Below are positions 1 to 44,645 of a stretch of DNA of 53,150 nucleotides, in pieces. The stretch is taken from positions 1 through 53,150 of the IMG/VR virus record IMGVR_UViG_3300025769_000161. One strand, given 5' to 3'. Positions within the stretch are counted from its first letter, which is position 1, and each line of letters opens with the position of its first letter. Below the pieces are notes generated by a model. The model ran no database searches. It was given only the letters and a program-made list of their open reading frames with translations, and was not told where the DNA came from. This DNA comes from a virus. The position numbers and the translations under genes were made by a program.

Positions 1-21
1 CGGGCGCAAGGACTATCTTGT

Positions 22-29
22 TATATTTG
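22..29 (+). promoter_or_regulatory. Late promoter -7 box (P1)
   Basis: The box reads TATATTTG and matches the Bacteroidetes -7 consensus TAnnTTTG. Only four bases (CGTC) separate it from the ATG at 34, so transcription would start at or next to the start codon. No clear -33 TTG lies about 20 bases upstream, although a TTG sits immediately before the box. The 18 bases at 15-32 are identical to 34632-34649. Confidence 0.75.
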
Positions 30-33
30 CGTC

Positions 34-6292: not shown

Positions 6293-6369
6293 TGGGGCGT
6301 AGTTCAGTTGGTTAGAGCGTCTGTCTTATACACAGGATGTCGCGGGTTCGAACCCCGCCGCCCCAACCA
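6293..6369 (+). tRNA. tRNA-Ile(TAT), CCA encoded
   Basis: A full cloverleaf. Acceptor TGGGGCG pairs with CGCCCCA (6359-6365). The D arm is GTTC/GAGC. The anticodon stem TCTGT/ACAGG has loop CTTATAC, giving anticodon TAT, which reads ATA. The T arm is GCGGG-TTCGAAC-CCCGC. ACCA (6366-6369) is encoded. It should help decode ATA, a common codon in most genes here but nearly absent from the capsid gene. Confidence 0.95.
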
Positions 6370-6443
6370 GCCCTTGTAGCTCAGTTGGATAGAGCAACAG
6401 CCTTCTAAGCTGTCGGTCCCAGGTTCGAGTCCTGGCAAGGGTA
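6370..6443 (+). tRNA. tRNA-Arg(TCT), no encoded CCA
   Basis: A cloverleaf beginning at the base after the previous tRNA. Acceptor GCCCTTG pairs with CAAGGGT (6436-6442), with a G-T closing pair. The D arm is GCTC/GAGC. The anticodon stem ACAGC/GCTGT has loop CTTCTAA, giving anticodon TCT, which reads AGA. The T arm is CCAGG-TTCGAGT-CCTGG. The discriminator is A at 6443, followed by CAT rather than CCA, so CCA must be added enzymatically. It matches the strong AGA/AGG preference of the phage. Confidence 0.95.
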
Positions 6444-6459
6444 CATAATTAAATAGAAT

Positions 6460-9839: not shown

Positions 9840-9845
9840 GTTTGT

Positions 9846-9853
9846 TATATTTG
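9846..9853 (+). promoter_or_regulatory. Late promoter -7 box (P4)
   Basis: TATATTTG, seven bases before the portal ATG at 9861, in the 21-base gap after the terminase stop. The run TTGTTATATTTGCG (9842-9855) is shared with the boxes at 22 and 34639, defining a stronger subclass of this promoter. Confidence 0.75.
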
Positions 9854-9860
9854 CGGTTAG

Positions 9861-27143: not shown

Positions 27144-27943
27144 TGGCAAAGAACTACGTATACATATCTCAAGTAGTAAACGACTTCATACTGACGAGAG
27201 ACCACGATGACTACGCTGGACACGTGCCAGACACTACGGTCAGGTCTCACGCACTCAGAGGTGTAAGGGAGTTTGGGTTTGACATGTCTCAGGTCGTGCG
27301 ATCTCTCAAGATTAGCGTAAACTCTACGACTGATACTGTTGAGTTGCCCTGCGACTATGTGGACTGGACCAAGGTCGGTGTCGTGGGGACTGATGGACTC
27401 GTGTACGTTTTGGGACACAACAAAAACATCAACTACTCTCAGAAGATGAAAGAGTGCGGTGAGTGCGAAGACAGGGAGGACTCAAAGACGGCTACCGCTG
27501 GGTTTTCTACTGCTGGTGGGGACGGCATAAAAGACGGTTTTGACTCTCATATATTCAGGAACTTTGTGTACCAGAATAACGAGGGCAGGCTGTACGGTGT
27601 TGGCGGTGGTCAATACTACGGGGAGTTCAGGGTAAACCTGGATCAGAACAGAATCGAGATCGAAGCAGACTCAGGAATCAGCGAGATTGTACTTGAGTAC
27701 ATAGCTGACGAAGCTAGGTCTGAGAACCCTAGGATCCACGTGTATGCAGAAGAAGCCCTGAGGAGCTACATATACTACAGAATCATAGAGAGAAAGGCTT
27801 CTGTTCCTGCTAACGAAAAGGCTCGTGCAAGGCAGGAGTATTACAACGAAAGGAGAAAGGCCAATGCTAGGATAAAGTCCTTCACTAAGGAGGAGCTGCT
27901 CAAGACGATCAGAAAGAACTCTAAGCAATCGCCTAAGCTCTAA
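27143..27943 (+). CDS. Probable tail-tube/ring protein
   Basis: 266 residues. The opening YVYISQVVNDFILTRDHDDY, then TTVRSHALRGVREFGFDM and LPCDYVDWTKVGVVG is the pattern of T7 gp11 / crAss-like ring proteins: helices, then a beta sandwich with LPxDYvdW. The C-terminus is helical and basic (ARARQEYYNERRKANARIKSF). It most likely forms the second ring between portal and nozzle. It overlaps the preceding gene by one base, and the hub gene starts at its stop (TAATGAAT). Confidence 0.7.
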   Translation: MAKNYVYISQVVNDFILTRDHDDYAGHVPDTTVRSHALRGVREFGFDMSQVVRSLKISVNSTTDTVELPCDYVDWTKVGVVGTDGLVYVLGHNKNINYSQKMKECGECEDREDSKTATAGFSTAGGDGIKDGFDSHIFRNFVYQNNEGRLYGVGGGQYYGEFRVNLDQNRIEIEADSGISEIVLEYIADEARSENPRIHVYAEEALRSYIYYRIIERKASVPANEKARARQEYYNERRKANARIKSFTKEELLKTIRKNSKQSPKL

Positions 27944-30900
27944 TGAATATAGATAAGTTCATACCTAGACAGCTGAACACAGATTCGGATGAGCGCCTCC
28001 TGAAGGAAGGTGAGATGCTCGACGCAATCAACGTTACACTGGACCCAGATGGAGACAGCACTGTAGGTGTCTTGAAGAACGTTAGGGGCACAAGAGCGTT
28101 GGACTGGGAGACTGTAAATGACGCCGTCCCTACTGACGAGCTGACGGTCATTGGCTCGGTTTCTGACCCGCAGAGAAACAGAATATACTTCTTTGCGGCG
28201 AACAACGACAACACGGGCGCTGACTACATCTACTATGTAGACACAGAGAACACAGACACCGCTACGTATCAGGTTGTTTTTCAGAGACCTGCTAACGGGT
28301 ACTTGAACTTCGACCCGAACTCATTTATAAAGGCAGACGTTGTCAACAGGGATTTTGACGCGGACGGCACCCTGGAGACCATTCTGTACTTTACAGATAA
28401 TATAAACCCTCCCAGAGCCATTAATGTAGATAGAGCTCTTGCGGGGGAGTATGACGGTTTCAACAATGTGGAGCTTGACTACGTCATAAACACCATCAAG
28501 GCAGCCCCCAAAAGGGAGCCCACCTTTAATTTTGACACCGACACCAACTTTAGTCAGAACAACTTTAAGGAGAGGTGCTTTCAATTCGCCACTCAGTTTG
28601 TCTACGAGGACAATCAAGAGTCAGCCCTGTCGCCTTACTCAAGGCTTGCGTTTATAGACTCTGCAAGAGAGACGTCTGTGGATACAGAATACGCGGATGA
28701 AATCTTTGCTTCTCTGGTGTTTGAAAATAACGTGATCGAAATCGACACGATGTTCAGGGGATATGTGGGTAACAACCTGTCTCCTGCTGCTGAAGTACCT
28801 ACTGTAGATACGATTAGGATCCTTGCAAGAGAAGATAATGATGGGGCGTGGTTTGTGATCGATGAGGTTGATGCTAACGAAAACGACGTTAGAAACATAA
28901 ACGGAACAGACACAACTGTATACAACTCTAATAGCGGCATATACAGGTGGTATAACAACGGAGGGTACAGGACGTCTAGTACTCTTGCTACAGACAAGCT
29001 GTATGATAACGTACCGCTTCTGGCTAGAGGTCAGACCTTTGCAGGGAACAGAATCGTGTACTCGAACTACGAGGAGGGGTACAATAACGATGTTACCCCT
29101 GAGGTAGACATTACAGTCGTGTATAACGATGGGGGTGCGTTTACTGCAGATCAATCAGGAACGACTACTGATGTAGTTGATTTTATCGTTGACGAGGTAA
29201 CTGGTGTTCCAGACGCTCTTAACGATGATGGATCTATAGTGGTTGACTTTGACACTGCGTTTTCTTCTCTGGGTCCTGCCGATCAGCTGAACGCTGGATC
29301 TGTAACTACGATTCAGTTTACTTGGGAGCCTCAGGGTCACGTGGACATCGCTGGTCCTAACTCTCCCGTCATGTTTCAGGGTGTTGACTCGGCTGGAGAT
29401 ACCGTAGCAGGATTGATTCAAGGTGCGACTAACGCCCCATACAACGTGTCGGGCTCTGCAGCCCAGAAATGGAACGTAAGCTTTAGCTATACCGCATCTG
29501 AGGGTGACACCGTTACCACTCTTGCTAATGCGTTTTCCGATTATATAACAGCACAAACGTGGTCATACACGATAACCCCCACCTCCACCACCATATCGGA
29601 GGATGCCGCTCAAAACGTCTCTGATATTGCGACTTTTCCGCTTGGGTTGATTGGTGCTAATCACACTATCGGGTGGCAGTTTGTGACGGTATCAGGCAAT
29701 GGTGTAGTGTATATACAGCCATATATCTATGTATACACTGTTAACCACGATTCACTCTATGCTCTTCGAGATGCATCAAATGATCAGGACTTCGACCCAG
29801 GTGGAATGCAGGGAGAATCTTGGTGGAGGATAGAGACTCAGTCTGACGACTTTATATCCGCTGGGTCTCAAACAAGAACCAATCACACCTACAACTTTAG
29901 CAACTCCTCAGACGACTACGGTATAGACGACGTTATTTTCAGGTCTAACTCTGTCAATACCACCCCTTCGTTTAAGGCTGGCGCCATGCATGAGTTTGCT
30001 ATGATGTACTATGATGAGTACAACAGAAATGGACCTCTCTTGAGGATCGGAAGCACTTATGTAGAGCATACATCTGAGAGAGATGTAGACGGAGGCGATG
30101 GATTGGGTCCAGTCGAGATCCAGTTTGATATTAATCACGATCCGCCAGACTGGGCGACCAGCTACAAGATACTGTACCCTGGAAACTCATCATTCCAAAG
30201 TATTTGGACAGGATCAGTACAGAACTCGTTTGTGGAGTACAGGGATGATGGCAATAACGGCCTTGAGATAAACCCAAACAAGAGGCACCTGTATCTTTCT
30301 ATCGAGGGCAACGAAGAGCTCAAAAGGGAGCACGGTATAAACACATCTTATGCGTTCAATGAGGGTGACATACTCCGCGTGATCTCGTATAATAACGACG
30401 GAACAGAGGGTGTTAGGGCTCAGTCTAGCCAGCCAGCAAACGCTCCTCTTATTGAGTTTAATGTGGTCCGAACAGTAACCCTGGACGACGGGGCTGACAA
30501 TCCTCTTAAATCTAGCGACGACGAGGACCTTGTGGCCTCTGGTAAGACAGGGAGGTTTATCGTTGTAGAGGCCCCTCAAGTGGACGCGGGTATACCAGCT
30601 CCAGTTACAGGGGGTTTGATTCAATATCAGGGGTGGGACTGGTGGTCAAGAACAAACACGGACTACCCGTATGTGGTAGACGGGAACCAGGTCTCTAGCA
30701 ATGGAGAAAACAGGTGGAAGAAAGAGGCTATTGTTGAGATTTTGACTCCGCTCGGAATACAAGATAGGTCCGTCTTCTACGAAATATCAGACTACCGTGG
30801 AATCGGAGTCCCAAGAAACTCTCTTGAAGATAACGAGCACGGTCCCCCGTTTAGCCTCAACAACGGGGACATCTACTATAGACCAGTAATCTGCTCTATA

Positions 30901-32400
30901 AACAACTACTCCAGCAATAATTGGACGGAGGACCCGTCAGACAGGAGAATACGCTCCATAATCATGGAGTCAGACAGGTTCTCGGACAGGAGACAAAGAA
31001 TCGACTGGGGCAAGGGTCGAGCCCACTTTGCGCTTACCGAAGGGGAAAACAGAAGAAGATTCAACGCCGTCACTTACAGCGATAAGTTGATTGATGACCT
31101 GAATAACAACTACCTCCACTCTTTTGACAAGAACAGCATTAATTACATCGATCTAAACCCATCATACGGGGCGGTGAATTACATCGATCGAATGGGCGAA
31201 AGGATGGTGGTGGCTCAGGAAAACAGGATCGGAAGGATGTCTGTTGGAGAAAGGCTTCTCAGGAACGCAGACGGAACCGCAAACTCGCTTGCCCTGACGG
31301 ACGCTCCGTTTAATCTAGATCTCTACTATTCTGGGGATTACGGTATTGGCGACAACCCAGAATCCGCTCTTGTTCATGACGGTCAGTTCTTCTTTGCTGA
31401 CGTGTCCAGAAACAGCATCGTTAGACTGTCCTCTGAACAGCTTTACCCGATATCAGAAAAAAGGTGTAGGTCCCTGTTCAACGAATTGTTTGAAGAGTAC
31501 AGAGACTACAACGGTGCTGACGGACGAATTGTGTCTGGATACGACCCTGATGTAGATATGTACTACGTCACGTTCATCATGGGTGCTGACAGTGACACAG
31601 TGGGGTACTCTGTGTACGGCGGGTCGGGCGGCAATGGGGCATGGATTAGTCGATACACGTTCCTCCCGACCAACTACGCCAACCAAAATAACCTGATGTA
31701 CTCCACTCTGTGGAATGATCCCAACACTGTAGATAACGACTTTGATCAGCAGCTGTTTTGGGTTCACGATGCAGACGCATACAACACTTTTCACGGAAAT
31801 GCTGCCGCCGCTTCTGACATAACCTTTGTGTCCAAGAAGGTTCCTAGTCAGGTCAAGGTGTTTGATGCCATATCCTACGAAGGGAGTTCGGCCAACTGGA
31901 ATATACAGGACATTACCACAAACCTAGGTAGCGATGGAGATGCTTTGGCATGGACAGAGCGGGAGGGCAGCTACTATGCTTACATAACAAGGGATGTAGA
32001 TGGATCTAAGCACATAACTGTACTTGGGTCTGTCGACACATCAGACACTGACGAAATTGTGTTCCAGCAAGCCATAAACAACATACCTGTTCCGTCTGGG
32101 GCAGAGTTGTTTGCTGTAAACGGGGCAAACCTAGACAGCCTGACTAACGGGGCTGCTGAAGCCAGAGTAAATGCAGTGACAGGCATCAACTCCATATCTA
32201 CTAATGGAGGCGCTATAAACACAGATAACACAGCTCAGAACACCGTTATTGTTGCTCAGACTGACGCGGCACTGAACAGCGACCCCATTAGAGGTCACTG
32301 GGCACAGATAAGAATGACAAACGCACAAGCGACTCAGCACGAGTTGTACTGCGTAAACCTAGTAATAACACCATCCCTGATACACCATCCAAAGGGATAA
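27943..32400 (+). CDS. Large tail hub/nozzle-like protein
   Basis: 1485 residues, beta-rich throughout. The N-terminus (FIPRQLNTDSDERLLKEGEMLDAINVTLD, then VLKNVRGTR and LYFTDNINPPRAINVDR near residue 147) matches the start of the tail-stabilising or nozzle proteins of crAss-like and related podoviruses (functional analogues of T7 gp12). Internal domains look Ig- or jelly-roll-like (about residues 400-600), followed by a beta-propeller-like region with YYDEYNRNGPL, FALTEGENRRRFNAVTYS and YDPDVDMYYVTFI. It should form the distal tail tip. The 5' neighbours are the two ring proteins. Confidence 0.72.
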   Translation: MNIDKFIPRQLNTDSDERLLKEGEMLDAINVTLDPDGDSTVGVLKNVRGTRALDWETVNDAVPTDELTVIGSVSDPQRNRIYFFAANNDNTGADYIYYVDTENTDTATYQVVFQRPANGYLNFDPNSFIKADVVNRDFDADGTLETILYFTDNINPPRAINVDRALAGEYDGFNNVELDYVINTIKAAPKREPTFNFDTDTNFSQNNFKERCFQFATQFVYEDNQESALSPYSRLAFIDSARETSVDTEYADEIFASLVFENNVIEIDTMFRGYVGNNLSPAAEVPTVDTIRILAREDNDGAWFVIDEVDANENDVRNINGTDTTVYNSNSGIYRWYNNGGYRTSSTLATDKLYDNVPLLARGQTFAGNRIVYSNYEEGYNNDVTPEVDITVVYNDGGAFTADQSGTTTDVVDFIVDEVTGVPDALNDDGSIVVDFDTAFSSLGPADQLNAGSVTTIQFTWEPQGHVDIAGPNSPVMFQGVDSAGDTVAGLIQGATNAPYNVSGSAAQKWNVSFSYTASEGDTVTTLANAFSDYITAQTWSYTITPTSTTISEDAAQNVSDIATFPLGLIGANHTIGWQFVTVSGNGVVYIQPYIYVYTVNHDSLYALRDASNDQDFDPGGMQGESWWRIETQSDDFISAGSQTRTNHTYNFSNSSDDYGIDDVIFRSNSVNTTPSFKAGAMHEFAMMYYDEYNRNGPLLRIGSTYVEHTSERDVDGGDGLGPVEIQFDINHDPPDWATSYKILYPGNSSFQSIWTGSVQNSFVEYRDDGNNGLEINPNKRHLYLSIEGNEELKREHGINTSYAFNEGDILRVISYNNDGTEGVRAQSSQPANAPLIEFNVVRTVTLDDGADNPLKSSDDEDLVASGKTGRFIVVEAPQVDAGIPAPVTGGLIQYQGWDWWSRTNTDYPYVVDGNQVSSNGENRWKKEAIVEILTPLGIQDRSVFYEISDYRGIGVPRNSLEDNEHGPPFSLNNGDIYYRPVICSINNYSSNNWTEDPSDRRIRSIIMESDRFSDRRQRIDWGKGRAHFALTEGENRRRFNAVTYSDKLIDDLNNNYLHSFDKNSINYIDLNPSYGAVNYIDRMGERMVVAQENRIGRMSVGERLLRNADGTANSLALTDAPFNLDLYYSGDYGIGDNPESALVHDGQFFFADVSRNSIVRLSSEQLYPISEKRCRSLFNELFEEYRDYNGADGRIVSGYDPDVDMYYVTFIMGADSDTVGYSVYGGSGGNGAWISRYTFLPTNYANQNNLMYSTLWNDPNTVDNDFDQQLFWVHDADAYNTFHGNAAAASDITFVSKKVPSQVKVFDAISYEGSSANWNIQDITTNLGSDGDALAWTEREGSYYAYITRDVDGSKHITVLGSVDTSDTDEIVFQQAINNIPVPSGAELFAVNGANLDSLTNGAAEARVNAVTGINSISTNGGAINTDNTAQNTVIVAQTDAALNSDPIRGHWAQIRMTNAQATQHELYCVNLVITPSLIHHPKG

Positions 32401-32416: not shown

Positions 32417-33208
32417 ATGTTAGGAATATTGGCAGCAGCAGCATTGGGGGGAGGGCTCCTTATGAATAAGGCTGAAAAGGATCAAAACCTCAGAGACAGG
32501 AATAGAAACTTCAGGGCTGTAAGTGACGCAACAAAAGAGACGAACTTCAGGCAGGGGAGGATTGAAGACTCTTTTGGTATGAACCCCTATATAAGGGAGT
32601 CACTTGAGCTTGCTAGAAGCGGGAATCTCGTAAAGTCACAGACTGACGCCGCAAACCTTAGCAGCGCCAATCAGCTTGAATTGGCAGCAAGACAAGGAAA
32701 CAGAGGGGGTACGAACGCTGCACAAATAGAGCGTATCAACCAGCAAAATCTGGTGAAGGCTCAGGATATGCAGCAGCAAAACCTGAACACTGCACTTACG
32801 GCTGCCAGCGCAAACAAAGACAGCCTGACGAGGGCAAAGAGACAGTTTGATGAAAACAGACTCAACCTTGCAGACACTAAGCTGGCTTCAGCTCAAGAGA
32901 ATTACGCTACGGCCATCGACAACGAAGCATCAAGACCATACAGGTTTGGAGCAGAAATGCTCGGTACTTTTGGGGATATATTTGGCGGGGGAGCTGGAAT
33001 TGCTACTGGAGCGAAGGGAATGAGGCTTCCTGGGGAGTTCTCACACAAAACCAATCCAATCGACATTTATCGAAACGGAAAAAGAATTGCACAGGCAACG
33101 GGGGAAGAGACCATGTACGTCATTAACGACAAACAGAAGGCTAAAGCAATGGCTCAAGGTGGGTATATCGCCTCGCTCCTTAGAAACCTTGACAAAAACT
33201 CAGCATGA
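32417..33208 (+). CDS. Internal virion / ejection protein candidate
   Basis: 263 residues. A hydrophobic Gly/Ala N-terminus (LGILAAAALGGGLLM) is followed by a long helical, Gln/Ala/Asn-rich body (about 20-175) with coiled-coil character, then Gly-rich FGDIFGGGAGIATGAKG and a small domain ending MAQGGYIASLLRNLD. This outline resembles T7 gp14-type ejection proteins, which pass into the outer membrane. It is the first of three genes transcribed from P8 and overlaps the next start by ATGA. Confidence 0.65.
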   Translation: MLGILAAAALGGGLLMNKAEKDQNLRDRNRNFRAVSDATKETNFRQGRIEDSFGMNPYIRESLELARSGNLVKSQTDAANLSSANQLELAARQGNRGGTNAAQIERINQQNLVKAQDMQQQNLNTALTAASANKDSLTRAKRQFDENRLNLADTKLASAQENYATAIDNEASRPYRFGAEMLGTFGDIFGGGAGIATGAKGMRLPGEFSHKTNPIDIYRNGKRIAQATGEETMYVINDKQKAKAMAQGGYIASLLRNLDKNSA

Positions 33209-34632
33209 AGACAGGGGCAAAAACACAATACCCAGTAGAAAGAAGAGGGTTCAGCTCTGAGTCTTTTCTACAAAGGCAGTCACCTAAACTTCAGGCGGCC
33301 TCTGCTAACGCTGCCGCTAAAAGGGCTGCTGAGAGAGACTTGGCTAAGCAGCAAGCGGCCTCAGCGCGAGAATCATACGACAAGCAAGTTGAAGCCCAGC
33401 GAAAAAAGTACATGGACATGGCCGCTCAGGTCGATGCTCCAGGAACGGAGAACATGTACGATGGTCACTTCAGGATGCTTGATGAGCTGGCCCAACACCT
33501 TGCTGATCCAGAAAACATTAAGCGGTTTGCCTCTACCCCTGAGGGCGAGATGGAATTCACCTCTTTGCTTGACCAGCTGGATACAATGACTGGCACGTTT
33601 GAGAGCTACTACAAGTCTACTTACGGGACCCCTGAGGACGAGAAGGACGGAAACACGTTCCAAGCGTCTCTAAACAGGAGTATTACTGGTGTGGACGGGG
33701 ACATTGACTTCATGACTCCGCACGAAGAGATGATCTCCAGGGCTAACGCTCTCGATGAGGTCAGCGGGCCGATGTTCGAAAGGATGGAGATTGTTGGAGG
33801 CAGGCCAGTATTTTACTCCCCTGACGGCACTGAGATAAACTTTGATCAGAAGTTCCTTGATCCCAACGTATTTAGGTCCGAACAACAGCTTAGACCCCCT
33901 GTGCGTGGCGCTGATCTGCTTGGTAGATCATACGACCCCATGGCTTTCGAGACAGAAGAGGACGTCGAGGACTTTATGCTTGAGTCTTTGAACAGGCAGG
34001 ACATCATGAATGATGCTCTTAGGTCCTACATAACCGACATGAAGGAGACCAATCCTGATTTTGACGCAACAATAGAGGATGTAAATACAAACGGAACTTT
34101 GCGCTTGAGAGTGCAGAAAGCCTACGTTGAAGACGCAATTAACGAATGGAATAAAAGAAGGGGAGCCGAAGGGACAGAGAGCGCACCTGTTTCAGAAACA
34201 GATCCTGCTGACTCAGTATCAGGAGATATGGGTGAGTTTACAGACGCAGACTTTGACTTAGATAACCCTGAGGACCAGTTTGGGGATTCTGCTGGAGTTG
34301 CTGTAGGGACTTCTGCTTTTGCTTTCGATGTAAGAACCCCTGCCGTAGACATCGGGGGGATAGACAGGAAGATGGAGAGAATGACGTTCGATACAGACAG
34401 CCTAAGTTGGAAAATCAAAATGGACTTTGCAGAAAAAGAAGACGGAAAGTCCTACCCAGAATTTACGCTTACCATACCCACTGATGCAGATGGAAAGCCA
34501 AAGATTACAAAATCGCTTAGGAATATACAGGACGCTTTTGACGATGAGTATGGGACGGCGCAGTTTGAAAAGCTGATGACTGAGATAAAAGACAGAGCCA
34601 TAGGCTCTTGGTGGGACCAGAGTAACGAGTAA
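33205..34632 (+). CDS. Internal virion / core protein candidate
   Basis: 475 residues: a basic, helical Ala/Lys/Gln-rich N-terminal coiled coil (about 25-75), a mixed middle region, a helical section near 250-315, an acidic linker (about 320-370) and a C-terminal beta/alpha domain ending WWDQSNE. No catalytic motif recognised. Placement between the gp14-like protein and the giant protein suggests a T7-gp15-like core role by synteny only. Confidence 0.6.
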   Translation: MKTGAKTQYPVERRGFSSESFLQRQSPKLQAASANAAAKRAAERDLAKQQAASARESYDKQVEAQRKKYMDMAAQVDAPGTENMYDGHFRMLDELAQHLADPENIKRFASTPEGEMEFTSLLDQLDTMTGTFESYYKSTYGTPEDEKDGNTFQASLNRSITGVDGDIDFMTPHEEMISRANALDEVSGPMFERMEIVGGRPVFYSPDGTEINFDQKFLDPNVFRSEQQLRPPVRGADLLGRSYDPMAFETEEDVEDFMLESLNRQDIMNDALRSYITDMKETNPDFDATIEDVNTNGTLRLRVQKAYVEDAINEWNKRRGAEGTESAPVSETDPADSVSGDMGEFTDADFDLDNPEDQFGDSAGVAVGTSAFAFDVRTPAVDIGGIDRKMERMTFDTDSLSWKIKMDFAEKEDGKSYPEFTLTIPTDADGKPKITKSLRNIQDAFDDEYGTAQFEKLMTEIKDRAIGSWWDQSNE

Positions 34633-34638
34633 TCTTGT

Positions 34639-34646
34639 TATATTTG
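34639..34646 (+). promoter_or_regulatory. Late promoter -7 box (P9)
   Basis: TATATTTG, five bases (CGTAG) before ATG 34652. Together with the box at 22-29 it forms an 18-base perfect repeat (34632-34649), the longest exact match among the promoters. Confidence 0.78.
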
Positions 34647-34651
34647 CGTAG

Positions 34652-37600
34652 ATGAATGTCGCGCAACAGGATATGGTTAAAGCCCTGCTTAATCAGGGTA
34701 AAACGCAAGAAGAGATAAAGAAGTTCTTGCTGGTTTCTAATCCAACCCAGCAAATCTCTGACGAAGAAATTGCCGAGATAAGCAACCCTGATCAAAAAAA
34801 AAAAGAGCAGGGAGCTTTAAAAGAGGAAGAACCAGGGGATACGCCATCCGAGCCTTCGGAAAAGAGTTCGGAGTCTACTCCAGAGACCTCTGAAGAGCCA
34901 AGCAAGAAACAGCCACTAGTGACGTTCTCTCCTCAGCTGGAGGACGATCCTGAACCACTGGTTAATCAGTTTAGGAACTATCTGCTCGATGTTCATGGCA
35001 CTGATAAAAACGAGAAAGGAGAACCCATAATCGGTGCCTACACGCTTAGCGATAACGCTAGACTTGCGGGTGGTTTTGGGTTGATGGCGTTTGAGTGGGC
35101 GAAGGAATCTGGTCTCACTCAGGAAGGTGAGAACGCCTTCGAGGACTTCCCTAAGTACGAAGGTCAGTTTGTGGAGTTCTTGGAGAAAGAGTACGGGGAC
35201 TATGAGAGATCAGAGGAGGACAACAAAAACTACCTCGCTGGCAGTATATACATGGATATCTCTAATGGGCATCGGGATATCATCGTAAACAATCGAGACG
35301 CGCTTCCGTCAGAGATAAACGACAAAATAAGAAAGTTTGACGACGACTATGTCAATGAGATAATACCCATTCTTGGGTTTGAAACCGAAGATCAGCTTGA
35401 AGAACTGTCTGAGCTGATGTATGAAAATTACAATTTCAGGCTAAATTTTGATGGGGATAGCGTGTACAATGAAGACGTCAGTGGTTTGCTGGCGCCTTTT
35501 GCTGCGGTTGGAGCGGGAGCCGTAGACATGGTTTCTGGACCCGCGTCACTGATTGCTGGTCCTTTTGCATGGCTTGCAAACAAGCTTGATGGGGATTCGT
35601 CCAACGACAAGACGTATGCCGAGTCTGTTGCCGACATAGACCAACTCTTTGCTAATGTTACTGACAACATTAGGAAGAAGGGGATGAAAGACTACCAGGA
35701 CTACGGGTTCGAGGAGATGTCCGAGAATCCACTACATGGGATTGGATGGGCAATTCAGGGTATTGCGGAAAGTGCGCCTCTTATGGCGGCGTCTATCGGA
35801 GCTGGAATTGCTACTGGAGGGACAAGCGTAATGGCTCAAGCTGTAGCTGGTGGAGCGGCTATCGCGGGTAGCGTTGCAACTAACACGTTTGTAGACAGTT
35901 ACAGGGAGGACCTTAACGCGACAAGAGAGGGAATGACCCCTATTTTTGACATGACGGCGTCAGGTAACGGGAAAAGGTTCTTGATGGCCCTTGGAAGTGG
36001 CGTCATTGAGGGTGGATCAGGTGTTATCCTGAGGGGGGCTCTGGGCAGGGTTACTGGAAAGGGGGGTACTCACGATATTTTTAGAAAGATCTTTCTTGGC
36101 ACCAAAAATCCCCGTACTCGACTTGAACAGCTTTTGATTTATGGAGGTCCTGCGTTTGCAGAAGTGCCTGCCGAAACAATGGTGGAGGTCAGCGCCCAGA
36201 TGTACAGAGACTGGACGGAGTACACTCTTGGAAACAAAGACTACGACCCTGATCAAATCTGGGAAAACGCACTTAAAACAGCAGAGGCGTCTGTTGTGAC
36301 TACAGCTGGACTTTCTACTGCTGGAACGGGTGTAGCCATGGTTAGAGAAAGGAACAACCTTTCTCAGGGTTCCAGGATTGACACCAACGACCCTTACAGG
36401 GAGCTTGAAATAGAAAACATGTCTAACTCTCCAGCCGACGAGGGGAACTACATGAGGTTGTGGTACAGATTTGAAGGCGAGGGTGTTGATTTTAGGAGTC
36501 AAGCGGAGGCCAATATTGCCATGGCGGATTCATCGCCATTTGATCTTGATGAAAATAGCACTAGTCAGGACTACATAAACGCTTATGAAAAGCACAGAAA
36601 GACCAATCGGGATAAATACAGGGCCATTAGGCTCAGGGATCCTAAGCGATTCTATAGGTTGCTTGCCATCGACAAGAAGCTTGCAGGGATTGTTCAAACG
36701 GGCAGGCTTGCAGAGGCTAACATGTCGTCCGAAACCCTAAATGATAGGGCGATAGAGAGAAATAAGAACAAGAGAAACCAGAAGAGAAAGGAGTTTATAG
36801 ACCTCATGGACGAGCGCCGCAGGCTCTACATGGAGTTTGAGTTTAACAACGACTTCTCAAAAGGAGAACAGATTCAGATCGACGACCAGCAGACGGCGTC
36901 TCGCGTAAACCAGCTGGACGGACAGGTTGCTGACGCTGAAACCGCTTTGGCCGCCGCAGAAAGGTCGCAAGGCGGAGAGGCTGGAAACCCGCTTATCGTA
37001 AAGCAGAAAGAAGAGGACCTTCAGTCTGCTAGAGACAGAAGAGACAGGGCCAATGAGCTCGTCACAGAGGTCAACAATACGAGGGACGAGATAGAAAGGA
37101 TGCAGCAAAGAGGGGCTCCTATTGAGACCCTAAAGAAGTACGTTGGAACGCTCATCGATACAGAACAGGAGTTGGCCGACTTGCTGGAGGTAAACAATAG
37201 AGCTACAGGAAACAAGAGAAAGAGAAACGACATGGAGGTCCTGGCTCCTGTTGAGCGTCCTGTGACCTGGTCTGCTGCTGATCAAGCTCGAAACCATTTT
37301 GCTGACGAAGGCAGTATGGGTAGCACGTTCACGTTAGACGGGACGGACCATGCTGGAAAGCCGATGGCTAGTGTAAGCATCTTCCCAGAAAGAAGTATTG
37401 TCGTTGACGGACAGATGTCCGAAGCGGACTTGATCGCGAAGCTGGACGAGTTCAAAGAAACGAACAAAGACATACTGGAAGGGAACGAAGATGTGATCGC
37501 TATCGGTACGTTCTACAGCCCAGAAAGCGAAAAGACGTTTATCGATCTGTCCGCCGTGGTGGACAAAGAGACTGCGGTCGAGCTTGGTAAGCAGTACAAC

Positions 37601-40600
37601 CAGGAGTCTGTCTGGGATCTTGAGAACATGGAGTCCATCGATACTGGTGGTGATGGTTCTCCCATTGAGGGCCTCAAGCCTGAGGCTGACAGGGTGGGTG
37701 ATATCAGGGACATCCAGGGCCCACCAGCAGTAAACGTCGAGCAGGCAAAAGCCCAAAGGGGTATTGACGGCAAGTACAAGGACTACCAGATGAACAATGG
37801 TCAGTTTGCCATTGGAACAGACACAAAGCTGTCGCAAGAAGATATCGACTTCATAAACAAGAAGATCGCGCCCACTCTGTCCAGAAACCTCGACAACGTC
37901 ACGATAAGGGTTCACACCGACAAGGAGTCTGGAAAATATGTTGCTGGGAATAATTCAGACGGATCGCTGTACAACGGATACGCGGTAACGTATGAGGACG
38001 GTAGCGCTGTCATTCACATCGTCCCTGATGCAATCGCTGGTCAGACAAGAAAGAGCACTAGGTCGGTCCTCATGGAGGAGGCCATGCACGTTATAATGGG
38101 TCCAGCTCTGGTAGACTATTTCAAGTCAAACGAGAAGGGCGCTCAAAAACTTCTGACGGATCTTGCTGGAGTCACACGGTCACTTGCTAGGGAGTTCCCA
38201 GAACTGGTTGATCTTAACGAGCAGACCGCGCTCAAGATGATGACTTACGCGGACGGGAAGGACTTTAGTGAATTGAGTCAGGACCAGCAGGCTGCTATCT
38301 ACGAAGAAGCTGTATTTGAACAACTCTCAGAGCTTGCCCCGTACATGGACAAGAACACCTTGTCCAAGCAGCAAAAGAGCAAGTTCATGGATGTCGTCAA
38401 CAGATTGGCGAAGCACCTTGGCTTCCCGTTTGTCACGACCCCAGACGAAGCACTAGACCTTTTGAAGAGGGCTGGACAGATGTATAACGAGGGAAAGGCC
38501 CTTGAAGCTGATGTATCTTCTCAGGACAGAGAGTCGGCGTCTCGCAGTAACGCTAGGAAAAAGCACGTCCAGTCTCTTCCTGCCGACGATCAGTTCGTAA
38601 TGCGGTATGCGCAAAAGGTCGTTGCGAGAGGCGGGTATGCTGCTGGAATAGGCGTTGGAAGCAAGTCCAATGAGCAGACATTTAACGGCAAGGGCCACTT
38701 CATTAATTGGTGGAAAAGAGCCACTCTGAACGGAAAGCACTACGATCACTACAGCGGTTTTGAGGTCAGCACAGACGGGGGAAAAACATTCGAACCCGTG
38801 GATGTGGAAGCCATGAGAAACTGGAACTTCAAGCCACTCAAGAGGAGGGAGACGGAGTTCGAGAAAAAGAGGAGGCTTTGGGAGGAAGAGCAGGCTCTCA
38901 ATAGAAAGGTCATGGACCTTTTTAGAGACGAGTACGGTACGGAATGGGGCCTTTATACAAAGAAGCAAGAGGTGCAGGCGGAAATCTTCAAGACGTTTAT
39001 GACGGAAGAGGAGATTGAAGCTCACCTTGATAGCACCCCTTACGGAAGAGGAAAGGATAAAGGCGACTACGACTGGCACTCTCTGTCTACGGAAAAGAAA
39101 GAGGAGTTCCTTGCGGCGGCTGAGGTGTACACGGGAAGGCGGAATGATGATAGTGGATCGGACGTTTTGACCGAGAGGGCCAACAAGGAGCTCATGGACA
39201 TCAATAAGATCATGAGCATCGAAGACCTGAACGAAAGGGTTGAGAAGATGAAAAAGATGCTCAGCAGATACAAGTGCGGTGGTGACACCAACGCTTGTGA
39301 AATCAGAGGCGACAAAGCTTACTTGGCTGTGTATCTGGATATGGTGAAGGCGGCCATGGATCAGAGCGGATACTCTGTTAACGCTGCAGCTGATTTGCTG
39401 TCTGGTATGCTTAGGTTCCACAACGACTTGAGAATGTCGAGGGGGCAAAGACCGATTACTGAGATCCACAAAGAAAACAGAGAACTTGCGGAAATGGCGG
39501 CAGACATGATCGCCGAAAAATACGCGGGCACTACAGACATCATACCTAGAAACTACAGGGATTTCAACGATCTGTTCCTGACCACTATGGCGATTACGTC
39601 GAACGGCAACAGGTCATACGCTAACACTAGGCTGGCGTTGCGGTTGCATGATGCATTCTTGAAGAGGCTTAACGGAGGGGCTCAGTCTCTTAGTGAAGCC
39701 ATGGGTGACGTGATACTTGAGGGAATCAGGGAATACAACCCAGAGATAACTGGAGGCGATGTAAGGGCTACACGGGGCAATGCTGTGGCTGATGAACTCA
39801 AGGCGCTTATGGAGTTTGCTGACGCATACTACGACCCTGAGACCATGGCCTTTGATTCCGATGCCTTTGCCGCCGATCTGGGGAAAAAGAGAATTGGCAA
39901 GGATGGCCCTGCAGCCAGAGATATAATATCCAAGGAAGGTGGGGACGCACAGAAAATTGGTGAGTTTGTACCTGCCATCCTCGGACAGGATCAGAACTCC
40001 ACCTTGGCAAACGAGCTGTGGGTGATGAGGCTTATGTCTGCTCTTCAAGGTAATTTTAACTTGAAGCTCGACATGGAGGGCGAGCAGATGCTCCTCGACT
40101 ACAGCCTAATTCCGAACGTTCAGGAGTTTAACAGAAACAACAAGATTACCGACGACATGGCTAGACAGGGTCTGGCTAGTGTCGGAAGAGAGAACGCAAG
40201 TGAAATCACCGACCCAGTAGAGCTTGCTATTGGTGGACTGATTTACCAGAAGGCAAGAAAGGATATCACTCAAGCCCAGAGAAACTCTGCCATAAACTTG
40301 TTCAGAAAGGTCATAGGAAGGGATCAGCTGTTTAATCCGAAGACCAACCCGATGGAGACCAAGGCTATTCTGAAAAAGACGGCCCAACTCCTTAACGAAA
40401 TGTACGGTCTTGCAGAGGGGGACCAGCAATGGAACGCTTTCATCGTACAGCAAGCCCTTTGGGAATCTGCCCAGGAAAGCATGGGTTACTTCCAGGACGG
40501 ACAGTACAGCGCAGTAGACTACAAGACTCAGCTGGAGAGAATCAAGGAGGCTGATGACTGGTCTACCATGGACGACTATTACGTCGACACACATAACGTT

Positions 40601-43600
40601 AGTCACGTACTCGACAGTCACTCTAACGGAAAAAACGTATCCTCAGAGAGAGCGTCTATGCAGCTTGACCTGTTTGGTGATACAGAATCTGACCTTGAAA
40701 TACAGGCTGATCAGTCGCCACTCTGGAGAGCTAGGACCATTGAGAATGTACCCCTTGTGAACACCAAGACTGGAAAACAGGCTATGTCCGATGACCTTGT
40801 CTCCGATGCCCTGCAAACAGATAAAACTTCTGTCAGGATTATGGGGGAGAATAACGAGGTCAATGAAGGGGACATAGTGGCTGTCAGGCTTAACCTTAAT
40901 GTCAAGAAGAACACGGGGGTGCCAGTACAAACCATACACGAAAGAACGGCAAGCGGAAAGGCTCTGCAGTATGGAGGGGCGGTGACACTTAGGAACGTTA
41001 CTCTGGACGTAAATCAAAACGCCAGAGAAAAGATCGTTACGTTCAGGGAAAACAAGTTCCCCATGGCTGCTGTAAGGGGAGAGTTTGTTTCCTCTGGAGT
41101 GGAAGGTGCAAATCTAAATGGGGTTGTTGCTACGTTCAACCCGTTCAAGCAACACCTGTTTGTGGATGCTGCTGGTAGACCAATCAAGTCTGCCGAGGAA
41201 GCCACAGTGATCGGGAACACCGTTATCCTGAGGGGAGAGATTGAGTACTACGATCCTTCTGATCCTGTAGCACAAAGAGGATTCCAGGAAACTGACGCCA
41301 ATAAGGCGGCTAGACTGGACAAGGGGAGTGATAAGTATGAGGGTAATCTCAGGAGGTTTGAAGCATTTATGGAGCGTGCGATGGGTATTACCCATGAGAC
41401 CAGAGAGCAACTAGAGGCCGCTTACGAAGACCTATCTGTTAGCTCCAAGGTTGCGCTTTCTGAATCCGAGATAGCCGAAGGAATGGCTACGGCACACGAA
41501 CGTGCCAGCGTATCCGAGTATACGGATGGAAAGAGAATGAGGGGAACAGCGAGGAAGCAAGCCCCACTCTTTGGTACGGACACTAGATCCCAGATCATAA
41601 ACAATCCTGAGAACTTCATTAAGCCTCAGAAAATCAAGGAGATAAGGGAAGACCTTACGGCCTATACTGATGGAGAGCTCGTCAGCTTTATGACAGACGA
41701 CTCTATTGGAAGACTCTCTCAGAGAAATGACGACATTGGGGTGTTGGCAGGAGCTGAACTGCTGTCCAGAGCCATTGCAAGGGGAGAGACAGACAGAATC
41801 CCTGGGCTCATTGCTGAGCTGGCCTCTATCGGTACTTCAGCTGGTAGAATTCTTAGACACTTCAGAGAGCTGAAAAGCTCCAACCCATACAGCCTTGCAA
41901 AGATAATTGAGTCCGCTGTGATTCAGGGCGGAAACAAGTTGTCAGAAGAACAGACTCAGAGGCTGAATGATATCTGCACCAAGCTTTATGATCAGCAGGC
42001 TAGGGTCGAAGACCTTATGAAGAAGGGGATTGCGGGCGAGGATGTTGACGCTGAATTTGAAGCAGCATTGAAAGAGATGCAGGCTACTGAGCGTCAGCTC
42101 GATACGTTTGCCAACGCAATGGTCGAGAAAGGTTGGGGAACAATCTTCAAGCAGCTGGTTCAGGGTAACCTTCTCACCCCGTTCTCTCAGATAGTTAACG
42201 TGGGTGCAAACACCGTGAACCTGTTTGGGCAAGCCATTGTCGACTCTGGATCTTTGCCTGTGGAGGAGGCCATGGTTAGGGCTGGAAACCTGATCGGAAA
42301 GAATCTTGAGCGGAAGCGCAGGCCCAGCCTGATGGCTTACTTCTACGCTATGAAGAGGTTTGGTGCTGGTTTCGTGGAGGCTGCCGATCAAATCTTAACG
42401 GGACAAGACAAGGATAGGTCTGAGTGGAGAATGGCTAGAGGCTTTGCTCCGTTTAGATCTCTCATGGCTGTTTGGGGAAATGATCTACCGCTTGGTGTTG
42501 ACGGAAAGGGGAGCCCAAGTCAGAAGGCTAAGCTTATCGTTCAGGGAACTCTCGGTATACCAGCAGAGACAATGTTTAGGTTCCTGTCTTTGGGTGACAT
42601 CCCGTTTAGGAGGTGGGCTGAAGCTAAACACCTGTATCAGCTTGGCGTGTCCAGAGGATTAGAGGGAGAGGCGCTAAACAGATTCCTGAAGTTCCCGAAC
42701 AAGAAGGACCTTGAGGTTGCTCAGAGGTCTGGAAGGAAGCTCACCTTCCAAGAAGAAGGGTTTGTAAGTGGGGTTGTAAACCAGACCGTGGGCACAATGG
42801 AAAGCGCCCTGGCAAAAGGATTTGAGATGATTCCTGGAGTCAAGAACGGTCGGAACTTTGCTACTGCCATCATGGGTGTTGTCCTCCCATACAGGAGTAC
42901 CCCAGCCAACATCTTGCAAGAGACCTTTACTTGGACCAACCCCTATGTAGGCCTCACTAGAATGGCAAACGAGTTGTCTAAGGGAGAAACCGAAGAGGCT
43001 TCCAAGACCATGACTAAGATGATGCTGGGGGCTACCACTCTGGAAGCGGCCATGATGATGATATCAGAAGGCATTATATCTGGACCTGTAGACTGGCAAG
43101 ACGACGAAAAGCGGAACATGGCTTATGACTTGTTCCCCCCTAACTCCATAAACGTCTCCGCCCTTGAGAGACTGATAAACGGAGAAGACCCGTCTCACAG
43201 CGTGGACGACACATTTTTGAGGTACGACAAGATGGGTATGTTCGGGGCGATTATGGCTACGGCTGTACAATCCATAGACTCTGATGACCTTGCTGACATA
43301 AAGGGCAGGGAGTATGGGGGTCCAGTTGAGTTTACGTCTCACCTTCTGTCCGACTACTTCGGAGCCTCGTCTGTCTCTGCGGCATCCGCTATGATGGAGC
43401 AGAGTTTTGTTCAGGGCCTGAATCAGTTCTTGCAAATTCTTATCGGAGATAACGTTGAACGTGATATGGAAAGGTTCGTCACTACCGCCTTCCGAGCAGG
43501 AAGTGCAGCTGTATTGCCCAACACTCTCACGTCACTGTACAAGTCTGAAAGAGTCTTCTTGCCTGACGCAAGGACTACAAAGGACATGACTACAGCCGAA

Positions 43601-44212
43601 AGGATCCTCAAGAAGTTTGAGTACACGCTCAAGGAGAGAACCTTTGGCATGTCTGATGTCCCTATCAGAGTTGACTGGAAAGGACAGGACATTACTCAGA
43701 CTCCAAGAGGTGCTAACGGGTACTTCTATGAGATGTTCGATCTTACCAGAGCCAGACAAGGATCGGCTGACCCGCTGTCAAATGAGATTTGGAGACTGTA
43801 CGAACAGACTGAAGAGTTGGCTGACGTTTGCTCGACCCCTGGATACGCAGAGAAGAGAGCTGTTGCTGTGCCAAACATAACTTCCAAGAGAGACCTTCGC
43901 TTGAAAGCCGCGCTTCCCAAGCAATACTCATGGATGGAAGATGAAGAGTTCATGGCAGAGAGCGTTTACCTCAACACAGAGCAGATAAACAGGCTCATGA
44001 AGATATCTGGACAAAACAGATATAACGCTGCGATGGCTGTTGTTGAGTCCCCAGAGTACAAGAATGCAAACGATCAAGACAGGATCGAAATGCTGAAGGA
44101 TGTCAATGATGAGTACAATGGGGCGAAGGAGTACAATGATGAAGGATTTGAGGATCACACAATAGAGTTATTCAATATCATTCAGGACATATACGATGGC
44201 AGATCAGAATAA
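34652..44212 (+). CDS. Giant 3186-aa ejection-type virion protein
   Basis: The largest gene here, 18 percent of the window. In order: a charged Glu/Ser/Pro N-terminus; hydrophobic Gly/Ala segments at about residues 279-312, 375-413 and 443-466 (candidate membrane insertion regions); a coiled coil (about 690-840); a zincin-like LMEEAMH (1141-1146); unassigned domains (about 1280-2100); a beta-rich section; a TSAGRILRHFRELKS helix region near 2395; and a C-terminal helical module (about 2494-2810). That module has LLTPFSQIVNVGANTVNLFGQA, LGDIPFRRWAEAKHLYQLG and VVLPYRSTPANILQETF. It matches the style of large phage internal polyvalent proteins. It probably forms part of the DNA-ejection channel. 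Confidence 0.75.
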   Translation: MNVAQQDMVKALLNQGKTQEEIKKFLLVSNPTQQISDEEIAEISNPDQKKKEQGALKEEEPGDTPSEPSEKSSESTPETSEEPSKKQPLVTFSPQLEDDPEPLVNQFRNYLLDVHGTDKNEKGEPIIGAYTLSDNARLAGGFGLMAFEWAKESGLTQEGENAFEDFPKYEGQFVEFLEKEYGDYERSEEDNKNYLAGSIYMDISNGHRDIIVNNRDALPSEINDKIRKFDDDYVNEIIPILGFETEDQLEELSELMYENYNFRLNFDGDSVYNEDVSGLLAPFAAVGAGAVDMVSGPASLIAGPFAWLANKLDGDSSNDKTYAESVADIDQLFANVTDNIRKKGMKDYQDYGFEEMSENPLHGIGWAIQGIAESAPLMAASIGAGIATGGTSVMAQAVAGGAAIAGSVATNTFVDSYREDLNATREGMTPIFDMTASGNGKRFLMALGSGVIEGGSGVILRGALGRVTGKGGTHDIFRKIFLGTKNPRTRLEQLLIYGGPAFAEVPAETMVEVSAQMYRDWTEYTLGNKDYDPDQIWENALKTAEASVVTTAGLSTAGTGVAMVRERNNLSQGSRIDTNDPYRELEIENMSNSPADEGNYMRLWYRFEGEGVDFRSQAEANIAMADSSPFDLDENSTSQDYINAYEKHRKTNRDKYRAIRLRDPKRFYRLLAIDKKLAGIVQTGRLAEANMSSETLNDRAIERNKNKRNQKRKEFIDLMDERRRLYMEFEFNNDFSKGEQIQIDDQQTASRVNQLDGQVADAETALAAAERSQGGEAGNPLIVKQKEEDLQSARDRRDRANELVTEVNNTRDEIERMQQRGAPIETLKKYVGTLIDTEQELADLLEVNNRATGNKRKRNDMEVLAPVERPVTWSAADQARNHFADEGSMGSTFTLDGTDHAGKPMASVSIFPERSIVVDGQMSEADLIAKLDEFKETNKDILEGNEDVIAIGTFYSPESEKTFIDLSAVVDKETAVELGKQYNQESVWDLENMESIDTGGDGSPIEGLKPEADRVGDIRDIQGPPAVNVEQAKAQRGIDGKYKDYQMNNGQFAIGTDTKLSQEDIDFINKKIAPTLSRNLDNVTIRVHTDKESGKYVAGNNSDGSLYNGYAVTYEDGSAVIHIVPDAIAGQTRKSTRSVLMEEAMHVIMGPALVDYFKSNEKGAQKLLTDLAGVTRSLAREFPELVDLNEQTALKMMTYADGKDFSELSQDQQAAIYEEAVFEQLSELAPYMDKNTLSKQQKSKFMDVVNRLAKHLGFPFVTTPDEALDLLKRAGQMYNEGKALEADVSSQDRESASRSNARKKHVQSLPADDQFVMRYAQKVVARGGYAAGIGVGSKSNEQTFNGKGHFINWWKRATLNGKHYDHYSGFEVSTDGGKTFEPVDVEAMRNWNFKPLKRRETEFEKKRRLWEEEQALNRKVMDLFRDEYGTEWGLYTKKQEVQAEIFKTFMTEEEIEAHLDSTPYGRGKDKGDYDWHSLSTEKKEEFLAAAEVYTGRRNDDSGSDVLTERANKELMDINKIMSIEDLNERVEKMKKMLSRYKCGGDTNACEIRGDKAYLAVYLDMVKAAMDQSGYSVNAAADLLSGMLRFHNDLRMSRGQRPITEIHKENRELAEMAADMIAEKYAGTTDIIPRNYRDFNDLFLTTMAITSNGNRSYANTRLALRLHDAFLKRLNGGAQSLSEAMGDVILEGIREYNPEITGGDVRATRGNAVADELKALMEFADAYYDPETMAFDSDAFAADLGKKRIGKDGPAARDIISKEGGDAQKIGEFVPAILGQDQNSTLANELWVMRLMSALQGNFNLKLDMEGEQMLLDYSLIPNVQEFNRNNKITDDMARQGLASVGRENASEITDPVELAIGGLIYQKARKDITQAQRNSAINLFRKVIGRDQLFNPKTNPMETKAILKKTAQLLNEMYGLAEGDQQWNAFIVQQALWESAQESMGYFQDGQYSAVDYKTQLERIKEADDWSTMDDYYVDTHNVSHVLDSHSNGKNVSSERASMQLDLFGDTESDLEIQADQSPLWRARTIENVPLVNTKTGKQAMSDDLVSDALQTDKTSVRIMGENNEVNEGDIVAVRLNLNVKKNTGVPVQTIHERTASGKALQYGGAVTLRNVTLDVNQNAREKIVTFRENKFPMAAVRGEFVSSGVEGANLNGVVATFNPFKQHLFVDAAGRPIKSAEEATVIGNTVILRGEIEYYDPSDPVAQRGFQETDANKAARLDKGSDKYEGNLRRFEAFMERAMGITHETREQLEAAYEDLSVSSKVALSESEIAEGMATAHERASVSEYTDGKRMRGTARKQAPLFGTDTRSQIINNPENFIKPQKIKEIREDLTAYTDGELVSFMTDDSIGRLSQRNDDIGVLAGAELLSRAIARGETDRIPGLIAELASIGTSAGRILRHFRELKSSNPYSLAKIIESAVIQGGNKLSEEQTQRLNDICTKLYDQQARVEDLMKKGIAGEDVDAEFEAALKEMQATERQLDTFANAMVEKGWGTIFKQLVQGNLLTPFSQIVNVGANTVNLFGQAIVDSGSLPVEEAMVRAGNLIGKNLERKRRPSLMAYFYAMKRFGAGFVEAADQILTGQDKDRSEWRMARGFAPFRSLMAVWGNDLPLGVDGKGSPSQKAKLIVQGTLGIPAETMFRFLSLGDIPFRRWAEAKHLYQLGVSRGLEGEALNRFLKFPNKKDLEVAQRSGRKLTFQEEGFVSGVVNQTVGTMESALAKGFEMIPGVKNGRNFATAIMGVVLPYRSTPANILQETFTWTNPYVGLTRMANELSKGETEEASKTMTKMMLGATTLEAAMMMISEGIISGPVDWQDDEKRNMAYDLFPPNSINVSALERLINGEDPSHSVDDTFLRYDKMGMFGAIMATAVQSIDSDDLADIKGREYGGPVEFTSHLLSDYFGASSVSAASAMMEQSFVQGLNQFLQILIGDNVERDMERFVTTAFRAGSAAVLPNTLTSLYKSERVFLPDARTTKDMTTAERILKKFEYTLKERTFGMSDVPIRVDWKGQDITQTPRGANGYFYEMFDLTRARQGSADPLSNEIWRLYEQTEELADVCSTPGYAEKRAVAVPNITSKRDLRLKAALPKQYSWMEDEEFMAESVYLNTEQINRLMKISGQNRYNAAMAVVESPEYKNANDQDRIEMLKDVNDEYNGAKEYNDEGFEDHTIELFNIIQDIYDGRSE

Positions 44213-44645
44213 GAAGTTTAAGGACACCAAGGTCGGGAGGTGGGTTGCTGAGAAACTGCCTGATGTGGCAGATACGCTCGGCGGGGTGCTCCCTGATCAA
44301 GGTGTCTTAGGCGTGGTCAAGCGCGTTGTTGCAGGAGATCCTGAGTTGTCAGCAGAAGATAAGCTTGAGTTTGAAAGACTGGCCGCCGAACAAGAAATGA
44401 ATGCTCAGGAGCAAGTTACAAGGAGGTGGGAGGCTGACGCCAAGTCTGATGTCAAGCTTGCCAAGTATATCAGGCCCATGACCCTGATCGTACTGATCGT
44501 ATTCTTTATGGTCCTGACTGTATGGGATGGTATGGACATGAGCTTTATGCCCCCAGAAAACTACATCGACCTCCTCGAAGTCCTGATGCTTGCTGTGTTC
44601 AGCGCGTACTTTGCAGGAAGAACGATAGAAAAGGTCAGAAAGTAA
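44196..44645 (+). CDS. Holin of the 3TM / GTA-holin type
   Basis: 149 residues. The N-terminal soluble part holds GGVLPDQGVLGVVKRVV and AEDKLEFERLAAEQE. It is followed by the KYIRP motif (about 90-94), then two obvious membrane helices at about 95-112 and 124-141, ending with a basic ERTIEKVRK-like tail. This matches the Pfam family I know as holin of 3TMs (GTA_holin_3TM): polar N-terminus, iRP motif, membrane segments near the C-terminus. It would permit M15 endolysin access at lysis. It overlaps the giant protein by 17 bases and is the last plus-strand gene before the converging hairpin. Confidence 0.8.
   Translation: MADQNKKFKDTKVGRWVAEKLPDVADTLGGVLPDQGVLGVVKRVVAGDPELSAEDKLEFERLAAEQEMNAQEQVTRRWEADAKSDVKLAKYIRPMTLIVLIVFFMVLTVWDGMDMSFMPPENYIDLLEVLMLAVFSAYFAGRTIEKVRK

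Follow-up and report, generated by a model that had tools for sequence, protein, structure and literature searches.

The giant gene and its surroundings

The window analysed here is a whole IMG/VR virus record (IMGVR_UViG_3300025769_000161), a linear fragment of 53,150 bp from a marine phage. Pfam and PHROG matches place the genes for TerL, portal, fibres, MCP, ring-type proteins and muzzle in succession at 7698-32400; the muzzle gene is followed by those for a 263-aa protein, a 475-aa protein and a giant protein, with which a crass-like tail/ejection cassette ends. The features of this part of the window are the following:

27943..32400, + strand: muzzle protein (phrog_14478, E 4e-87; Pfam crAss_MUZ_C, E 1e-7)
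32417..33208, + strand: 263-aa protein, first of a putative ejection trio (homologous to phi18:3 gp120, E 1.6e-9 and MS/MS-detected, to phi38:1 gp99 and to elemo gp20)
33205..34632, + strand: 475-aa protein, placed second in the putative ejection trio on account of its position
34635..34648, + strand: promoter-like element TTGTTATATTTGCG, which contains TAnnTTTG, the -7 form of Bacteroidota, and lies 4 bases ahead of the ATG of the giant gene
34652..44212 (stop included), + strand: giant ORF of 3186 aa, starting with ATG and without internal stop (translation and relatives)
44196..44645, + strand: holin, overlapping the end of the giant gene (phrog_3427, E 9e-18)

The phage can be called crass-like in its tail only, since the muzzle carries crAss_MUZ_C but the true crassvirus phi14:2 is matched by none of the virion-protein profiles of the group; membership of the Crassvirales is not claimed, that Pfam domain being the sole link. 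The MCP has matches in 85 phage records, almost all of them from flavophages (Cellulophaga, Flavobacterium, Maribacter), and the virion-protein profiles find matches in phi38:1 and, for most of them, in the elemo phages (E 1e-9 to 1e-136). The muzzle, the ring proteins, the MCP and the 263-aa protein are homologous and syntenic in phi38:1, phi18:3 and the elemo phages; the portal and 475-aa profiles gave no match in this set. Three exact copies of TTGTTATATTTGCG are present on the + strand of the window (18-31, 9842-9855 and 34635-34648), with 0.23 expected when up to 2 mismatches are allowed. The copy at 9842-9855, identical to that of the giant gene, directly precedes the portal gene, and TAnnTTTG is found upstream of about 20 genes of relatives. 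These elements are candidates for late promoters of Bacteroidota type and point to Bacteroidota-type bacteria as hosts. The terminase gene is preceded, at 6293-6444, by a pair of neighbouring tRNA genes for Ile(tat) and Arg(tct). Directly downstream of the features listed above, the opposite strand encodes a B12-dependent (class II) ribonucleotide reductase (44747-46639, -).

The giant ORF is real: homologous ORFs, or parts of them, occur in 34 non-redundant viral contigs, and dN/dS is 0.02-0.19 in every segment, as calculated on the one pair of relatives with measurable synonymous divergence, confirming that coding is not due to chance and that the protein is under purifying selection among relatives. 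The relatives were reached only via the portal and the MCP, followed by a family alignment; no match came from a single-sequence scan of viral contigs with the giant, from a PDB sequence search or from tblastn against 50,697 phage records, for which the giant was divided into three pieces. Residues 2300-3186 are found in every aligned relative (n=31), with a mean identity to the protein of the window of ~50%; outside this region identity is 10-30% and sequence is often missing, except for residues 2050-2200 (~60%). Natural short forms of 1583 aa (L238; 7949-12697) and 2130 aa (L246; 6284-12673) keep both ends and have lost large parts of the middle; assembly, or other genes, may be their source.

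Domain composition of the giant protein

The following features were recognised along the chain:

35249..35911, + strand: N-terminal module, residues 200-420, with a [DN]-x-DGD-VYNE motif and Gly/Ala hydrophobic segments (from the sequence)
36839..37261, + strand: charged, coiled-coil-like helical stretch, residues 730-870 (by eye from the translation)
37289..37786, + strand: exchange slot, residues 880-1045, occupied in the window by a 'VSIFPER...YNQESVWDL...TGGDG' domain (comparison of relatives; beta-alpha model)
37763..38485, + strand: zincin-type domain, residues 1038-1278 (VIA match to N4 vRNAP; hhalign to elemo gp18)
38075..38089, + strand: EEAMH, residues 1142-1146, zincin motif with Glu for the first His (invariant EExxH)
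38579..38821, + strand: conserved FNGKxHFINWWKxxT domain, residues 1310-1390 (invariant F1344, F1350, N1352, W1353 and W1354)
39275..39298, + strand: cysteine pair C-GGDTNA-C, residues 1542-1549 (alignment)
39395..40576, + strand: helical domain, possibly PUGT/HhH-glycosylase-like, residues 1582-1975 (VIA match to 8z2m)
40865..41224, + strand: Phage_L5_gp82 domain (PF25735), residues 2072-2191 (E 4e-11; phrog_586)
41549..44209, + strand: obligatory C-terminal helical module, residues 2300-3186 (occupied in all aligned members; model match)

A preliminary description, made from the letters of the window alone, had noticed hydrophobic Gly/Ala segments, a coiled coil and a stretch with paired cysteines, and all three were recovered. 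The hydrophobic segments lie at residues 276-301 (Kyte-Doolittle 19-mer up to 1.63) and 361-400, the latter an uncharged G/A-rich 40-mer; the N-terminal module that contains them was detected as well in the giants of L195, Panino and the L197-L204 group. The FDGDSVYNED sequence at residues 265-274 (35444-35473), which adjoins the Gly/Ala hydrophobic segment, is EF-hand-loop-like and reads DLDGDxVYNE in relatives. The coiled coil corresponds to the charged, coiled-coil-like stretch seen by eye at about 730-870. Four cysteines are found in the whole protein, and the 'CGGDTNACEIRG' stretch carries Cys 1542 and Cys 1549; this C-x6-C pair (CGG-x4-C region) is specific to a clade, with 11 of the 31 family members having it.

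Residues 1280-2100 had been said to match nothing, and this holds for part of the region, which contains the FNGKxHFINWWK element at residues 1344-1355; no single known fold spans it. The first exception is the Phage_L5_gp82 domain at 2072-2191, which scores 43.3 bits against a gathering score of 27 and is present in all 14 members scanned. The second is suggested by residues 1582-1975 in the model of 880-2075, whose top VIA match is 8z2m, the phage DNA-hypermodification transferase PUGT (Z 6.5, 230 of 287 residues, rmsd 5.1); a profile search of PDB sequences did not find PUGT. Since a Z-score under 8 can be due to chance for a helical domain and there is no sequence match, the likeness is a lead to a possible helical domain of glycosylase fold. 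Relatives have TxDxHV ('VTIDTHV'-like) motifs within this domain, where the window has 'LANELWV'; we take these motifs to recall the active-site strand of HhH-GPD proteins. Matches to PF09802 Sec66 (20.6 bits, cut-off 22.1) and SseC were dismissed as chance; the weak match of residues 1312-1379 to CapRel (Z 3.1-3.3) was rejected.

The zincin-like region of the preliminary description was found in its fold and in profile comparison, with a different motif. In a model of residues 880-2075, of moderate confidence (pLDDT 71), residues 1038-1278 align with residues 2127-2363 of the N4 vRNAP (VIA, Z 5.7, 198 residues), and metallopeptidases, including collagenase G, IRAP, aminopeptidase N and Ste24p, match with Z 4.2-4.7. 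The N4 match falls in the right place, since residues 2130-2448 of that protein were assigned to the zincin superfamily by Iyer et al. (PMC5512222). The family profile also aligns with residues 1476-1663 of elemo gp18 (hhalign, 96%, E 2e-9), with EEAMH opposite HEIFH. E-E-x-x-H is found in 26/26 aligned members of the clade of the window and HExxH in none; among the other giants encoded at this locus, by contrast, the majority contain between one and three HExxH motifs. The giants of L195 (3223 aa) and of MW202828 (L210) contain two or three HExxH zincin motifs per chain. The domain is likely inactive, although a Glu ligand is chemically possible.

The missing first zinc ligand speaks against autoproteolysis in this protein, and so against a self-processing polyprotein from which the zincin would release separate enzymes, a scheme put forward for P1 DdrB. 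This explanation would agree with the finding that zincins belong to the most frequent partner domains of polyvalent proteins, for which processing has been proposed (PMC5512222), and with the presence of HExxH in most other giants at this locus; however, EExxH is without exception in the clade, and the N4 vRNAP, whose HExxH is intact, is packaged unprocessed (PMC5512222), which makes a self-processing giant improbable. The N4 match could also suggest that the giant is itself a virion RNA polymerase, taking the place of the crassvirus vRNAP trio or of N4 gp50 with a diverged polymerase. In phi14:2 the genes after muzzle and cargo include gp77, an RNAP of 2180 aa with a DFDID motif, and a search of 15 records for a vRNAP homologue elsewhere, which had no positive control, gave none. 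However, neither Pfam, PHROG nor PDB sequences gave a match to any RNAP, no polymerase domain was among the matches listed by fold searches with models of residues 880-3186, and the [DN]-x-DGD motif at residues 265-269 adjoins a Gly/Ala segment and is lost in many relatives; a polymerase is considered highly improbable.

The C-terminal helical module that the preliminary description had likened to those of large phage internal proteins is confirmed at the level of fold. A search of BFVD (Foldseek) with the AlphaFold model of residues 2000-3186, of moderate confidence (pLDDT 69), gave 52 matches at E<=0.001, the best at 1e-18. The best matches are to phage proteins whose annotations include MuF C-terminal, PolyVal ADP-ribosyltransferase and large polyvalent protein-associated domains, and two entries, from Pelagibacter phage EXVC018P and Synechococcus phage S-CBP3, bear the name internal virion protein. 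The best alignments span about 870-1150 columns with low TM-scores (0.24-0.32), as expected if the domains are arranged differently. Vinculin/catenin-type helical bundles, matched by the C-terminal model in VIA with Z up to 7.2, were dismissed as common helix packing. Placement of the giant with the polyvalent/internal virion class is thus strongly supported by its modelled C-terminal fold. The giant resembles phage polyvalent proteins (Iyer et al. 2017, PMC5512222) in being a very large chain with several unrelated domains, in the position of its gene among late/virion genes, in its PolyVal/LPD-type C-terminal fold and in its zincin-like MPTase fold, a common and not obligatory component. It differs from them in its EExxH, HExxH being a property of the MPTase domain and not of the polyvalent class, and in the DUF3293/SAM-lyase-like slots of its relatives, the term 'SAM lyase' being absent from that study (PMC5512222). 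No recognisable match to ART, PBECR, ParB, MTase-helicase or LPD models was found in the giant.

Exchange of one domain between related phages

The most telling region of the giant is at residues 880-1045, rather than at 1280-2100. Outside this slot, the relatives L165 and L191 share about 95% identity over 3.2 kaa; inside it, protein identity drops to 18% and DNA identity changes from 0.98 to 0.2-0.45 and back to 0.98; the same replacement, with the same boundaries, separates L168 from L221 and L230. Slot states were assigned by hand to 31 sequences: ten, the window and nine others, have the 'VSIF...NQESVWDL' domain, seven a DUF3293 domain, four a third domain, five a linker and five other contents. 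On the tree of residues 2300-3186 from these sequences the slot changed state at least nine times. Thus, the slot is exchanged between related phages and has at least three different contents in relatives; such recent, repeated and in-frame domain replacement is what selection for changing payloads would give. The third domain ('DAYATKLEEIYVDAGFKPVARV...PDVVFF'), present in L191, L193, L221 and L230, has phrog_2563 as its only match; by eye we take it to be GNAT-like, a label for which neither Pfam nor the PDB gave a match.

The DUF3293 domains of L226 and L240 also match Pfam S-AdoMet_lyase (PF23780), that of L226 with 28.7 bits against a cut-off of 28. SAM lyases, such as T3 SAMase and Svi3-3, are characterised by conserved Gly56, Tyr58, Glu69 and Gln104, with Glu69 critical (PMC7877911). 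G-x-Y, E and Q are kept in 8/8 DUF3293-type domains (L185, L186, L187, L190, L192, L226, L240 and elemo gp18), and DUF3293 may more widely be a SAM lyase family. DUF3293 with the S-AdoMet lyase signature lies inside giant phage proteins at L226:9470-9960, L240:7898-8400 and L211:3929-4468. Gp18 of the Flavobacterium elemo phage (3694 aa), encoded at the same locus and in the same cassette, shares with the giant a zincin domain and carries a DUF3293 slot-type domain, and differs in its HExxH. Differently from the known SAM lyases, which turn SAM into MTA and homoserine lactone and are early, free enzymes, the domain of the relatives sits in a giant structural-type protein; we infer from the retained residues that a SAM lyase is carried in an ejection protein in DUF3293-type relatives. 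Restriction and BREX are both countered by SAM lyases (PMC12255297).

The slot domain of the window keeps G-T-[FWY] and the Gln, but the Glu position is variable, so that the signature of SAM-lyase catalytic residues is incomplete; its common descent with DUF3293 is not claimed, hhalign giving 37% over a motif of 19 columns only. The central model has matches of 113-158 aligned columns in BFVD, several being free phage proteins of 120-140 aa; these are tentatively attributed to the slot domain on account of their size and of a matching PHROG of 433 residues. Against the PDB, Foldseek with this model returned nothing at E<=0.001. The suggestion that the giant is a multi-enzyme stands in part: at least three separable folds are indicated (slot domain, zincin and L5_gp82-like), with a possible PUGT-like one, but the zincin and slot domains of the window are without a key catalytic residue.

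Proposed virion location and role

Evidence for a virion location comes from Cellulophaga phage phi18:3, which has the same locus and cassette, in the order muzzle gp114 (with gp115 as its C-terminal piece), gp120, gp121 and, as last gene, gp123 (1935 aa). The annotations of gp114, gp115, gp120, gp121 and gp123 are based on experimental MS/MS. Since gp123 has no detectable sequence similarity to the giant and shares only its position, the virion detection is evidence by position; the C-terminal module of the window family was detected neither in gp123 nor in elemo gp18. Genes for a small, a medium and a giant ejection protein stand in a row also in T7 (gp14/15/16) and DEV (gp73/72/71) (PMC10925440), and in phi-crAss001 the cargo and vRNAP genes come after the muzzle gene (PMC10172136). 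With N4 gp50 and DEV gp71 the giant shares a size of ~3,200-3,500 aa, a zincin-type domain, the position of largest member of the trio by gene order and, putatively, a C-terminal region implicated in packaging, and differs in that no polymerase domain was detected by sequence or, for residues 880-3186, by fold. Crassvirus cargo and vRNAP genes (phi-crAss001 gp45-gp50; phi14:2 gp76-gp79) similarly lie directly after the muzzle and encode cargo proven by MS in crassvirus virions, but as several chains rather than one and with no detected sequence similarity to the giant. Overall, the giant is most likely a component of the virus particle that is injected together with the DNA. The description of the product as an ejection-type giant is thus upheld by the order of the genes, by the MS/MS detection of its positional equivalent in phi18:3 and by the match of the C-terminal fold to internal virion/polyvalent proteins, and the first reading was largely right, corrections being the missing first His of the zincin and the location of the most telling region.

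The giant is therefore best interpreted as an internal virion (ejection) protein of polyvalent type, and we assign a probability of about 0.7 to this reading with the following mechanism. The protein would be made late, from a promoter-like element that the portal gene also has, and its obligatory C-terminal ~890 residues would mediate its packing in the head. Together with the 263-aa and 475-aa proteins it would exit the head before the DNA, like T7 gp14/15/16, DEV gp73/72/71 and crass gp45/46 plus vRNAP, with the N-terminal Gly/Ala hydrophobic segments helping it to cross or line the envelope channel. The middle of the chain would then refold in the cytoplasm; ahead of phage gene expression, nucleic-acid defence or host DNA may be the target of the slot domain (880-1045) and of the helical domain (1582-1975). 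In relatives, an S-AdoMet-lyase-like slot would starve SAM-dependent restriction and BREX systems; the slot of the window would hold a different small domain. The zincin-type domain, without its first zinc ligand, would be a structural or binding module and not a self-processing protease, and the chain is probably unprocessed.

A purely mechanical protein like T7 gp16, whose chain builds a channel or pulls DNA and whose variable middle is filler or envelope adaptation, would fit the location of the gene behind two smaller ones, as in the T7 and DEV trios, the C-terminal match to entries named internal virion protein, the mostly helical structure and the zincin and slot domains of the window lacking key catalytic residues. 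However, the clean, fixed-site swap of one internal domain for unrelated ones in near-identical genes is unexpected of filler, and so is an enzyme signature conserved in one slot content; a mechanical role of this kind is accordingly considered unlikely.

For the reading as an ejection protein of polyvalent type, the putative delivery of anti-defence domains, already suggested in the preliminary description, is strengthened by the exchange slot and by its S-AdoMet_lyase-like content in relatives. The closest functional analogy is with T4 Ip2/Ip3, injected and variable anti-restriction cargo (PMC12373910), which are small separate proteins; no shared sequence is claimed. More tentatively, and at somewhat less than even odds, the locus could be a virion-borne cassette holder, in which the C-terminal packaging/ejection module is fixed and each phage loads it with a single interchangeable anti-defence domain; these would include injected SAM lyases, disarming SAM-dependent restriction and BREX before phage gene expression, and the domain of the window would be a new anti-defence domain in the same slot.

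The giant stands for a new family among the phage polyvalent/internal virion proteins, marked by its domain-exchange slot and its degenerate zincin motif. Should the slot domains be effectors that are injected, pairs of the L165/L191 type, close relatives with a difference in the slot alone, would be a natural experiment, in which the cargo can be read from the slot. An injected SAM lyase, if true, would close the time gap of T3-type enzymes, which need expression first. These findings suggest a function for DUF3293 and show how giant ejection proteins gain and lose cargo.
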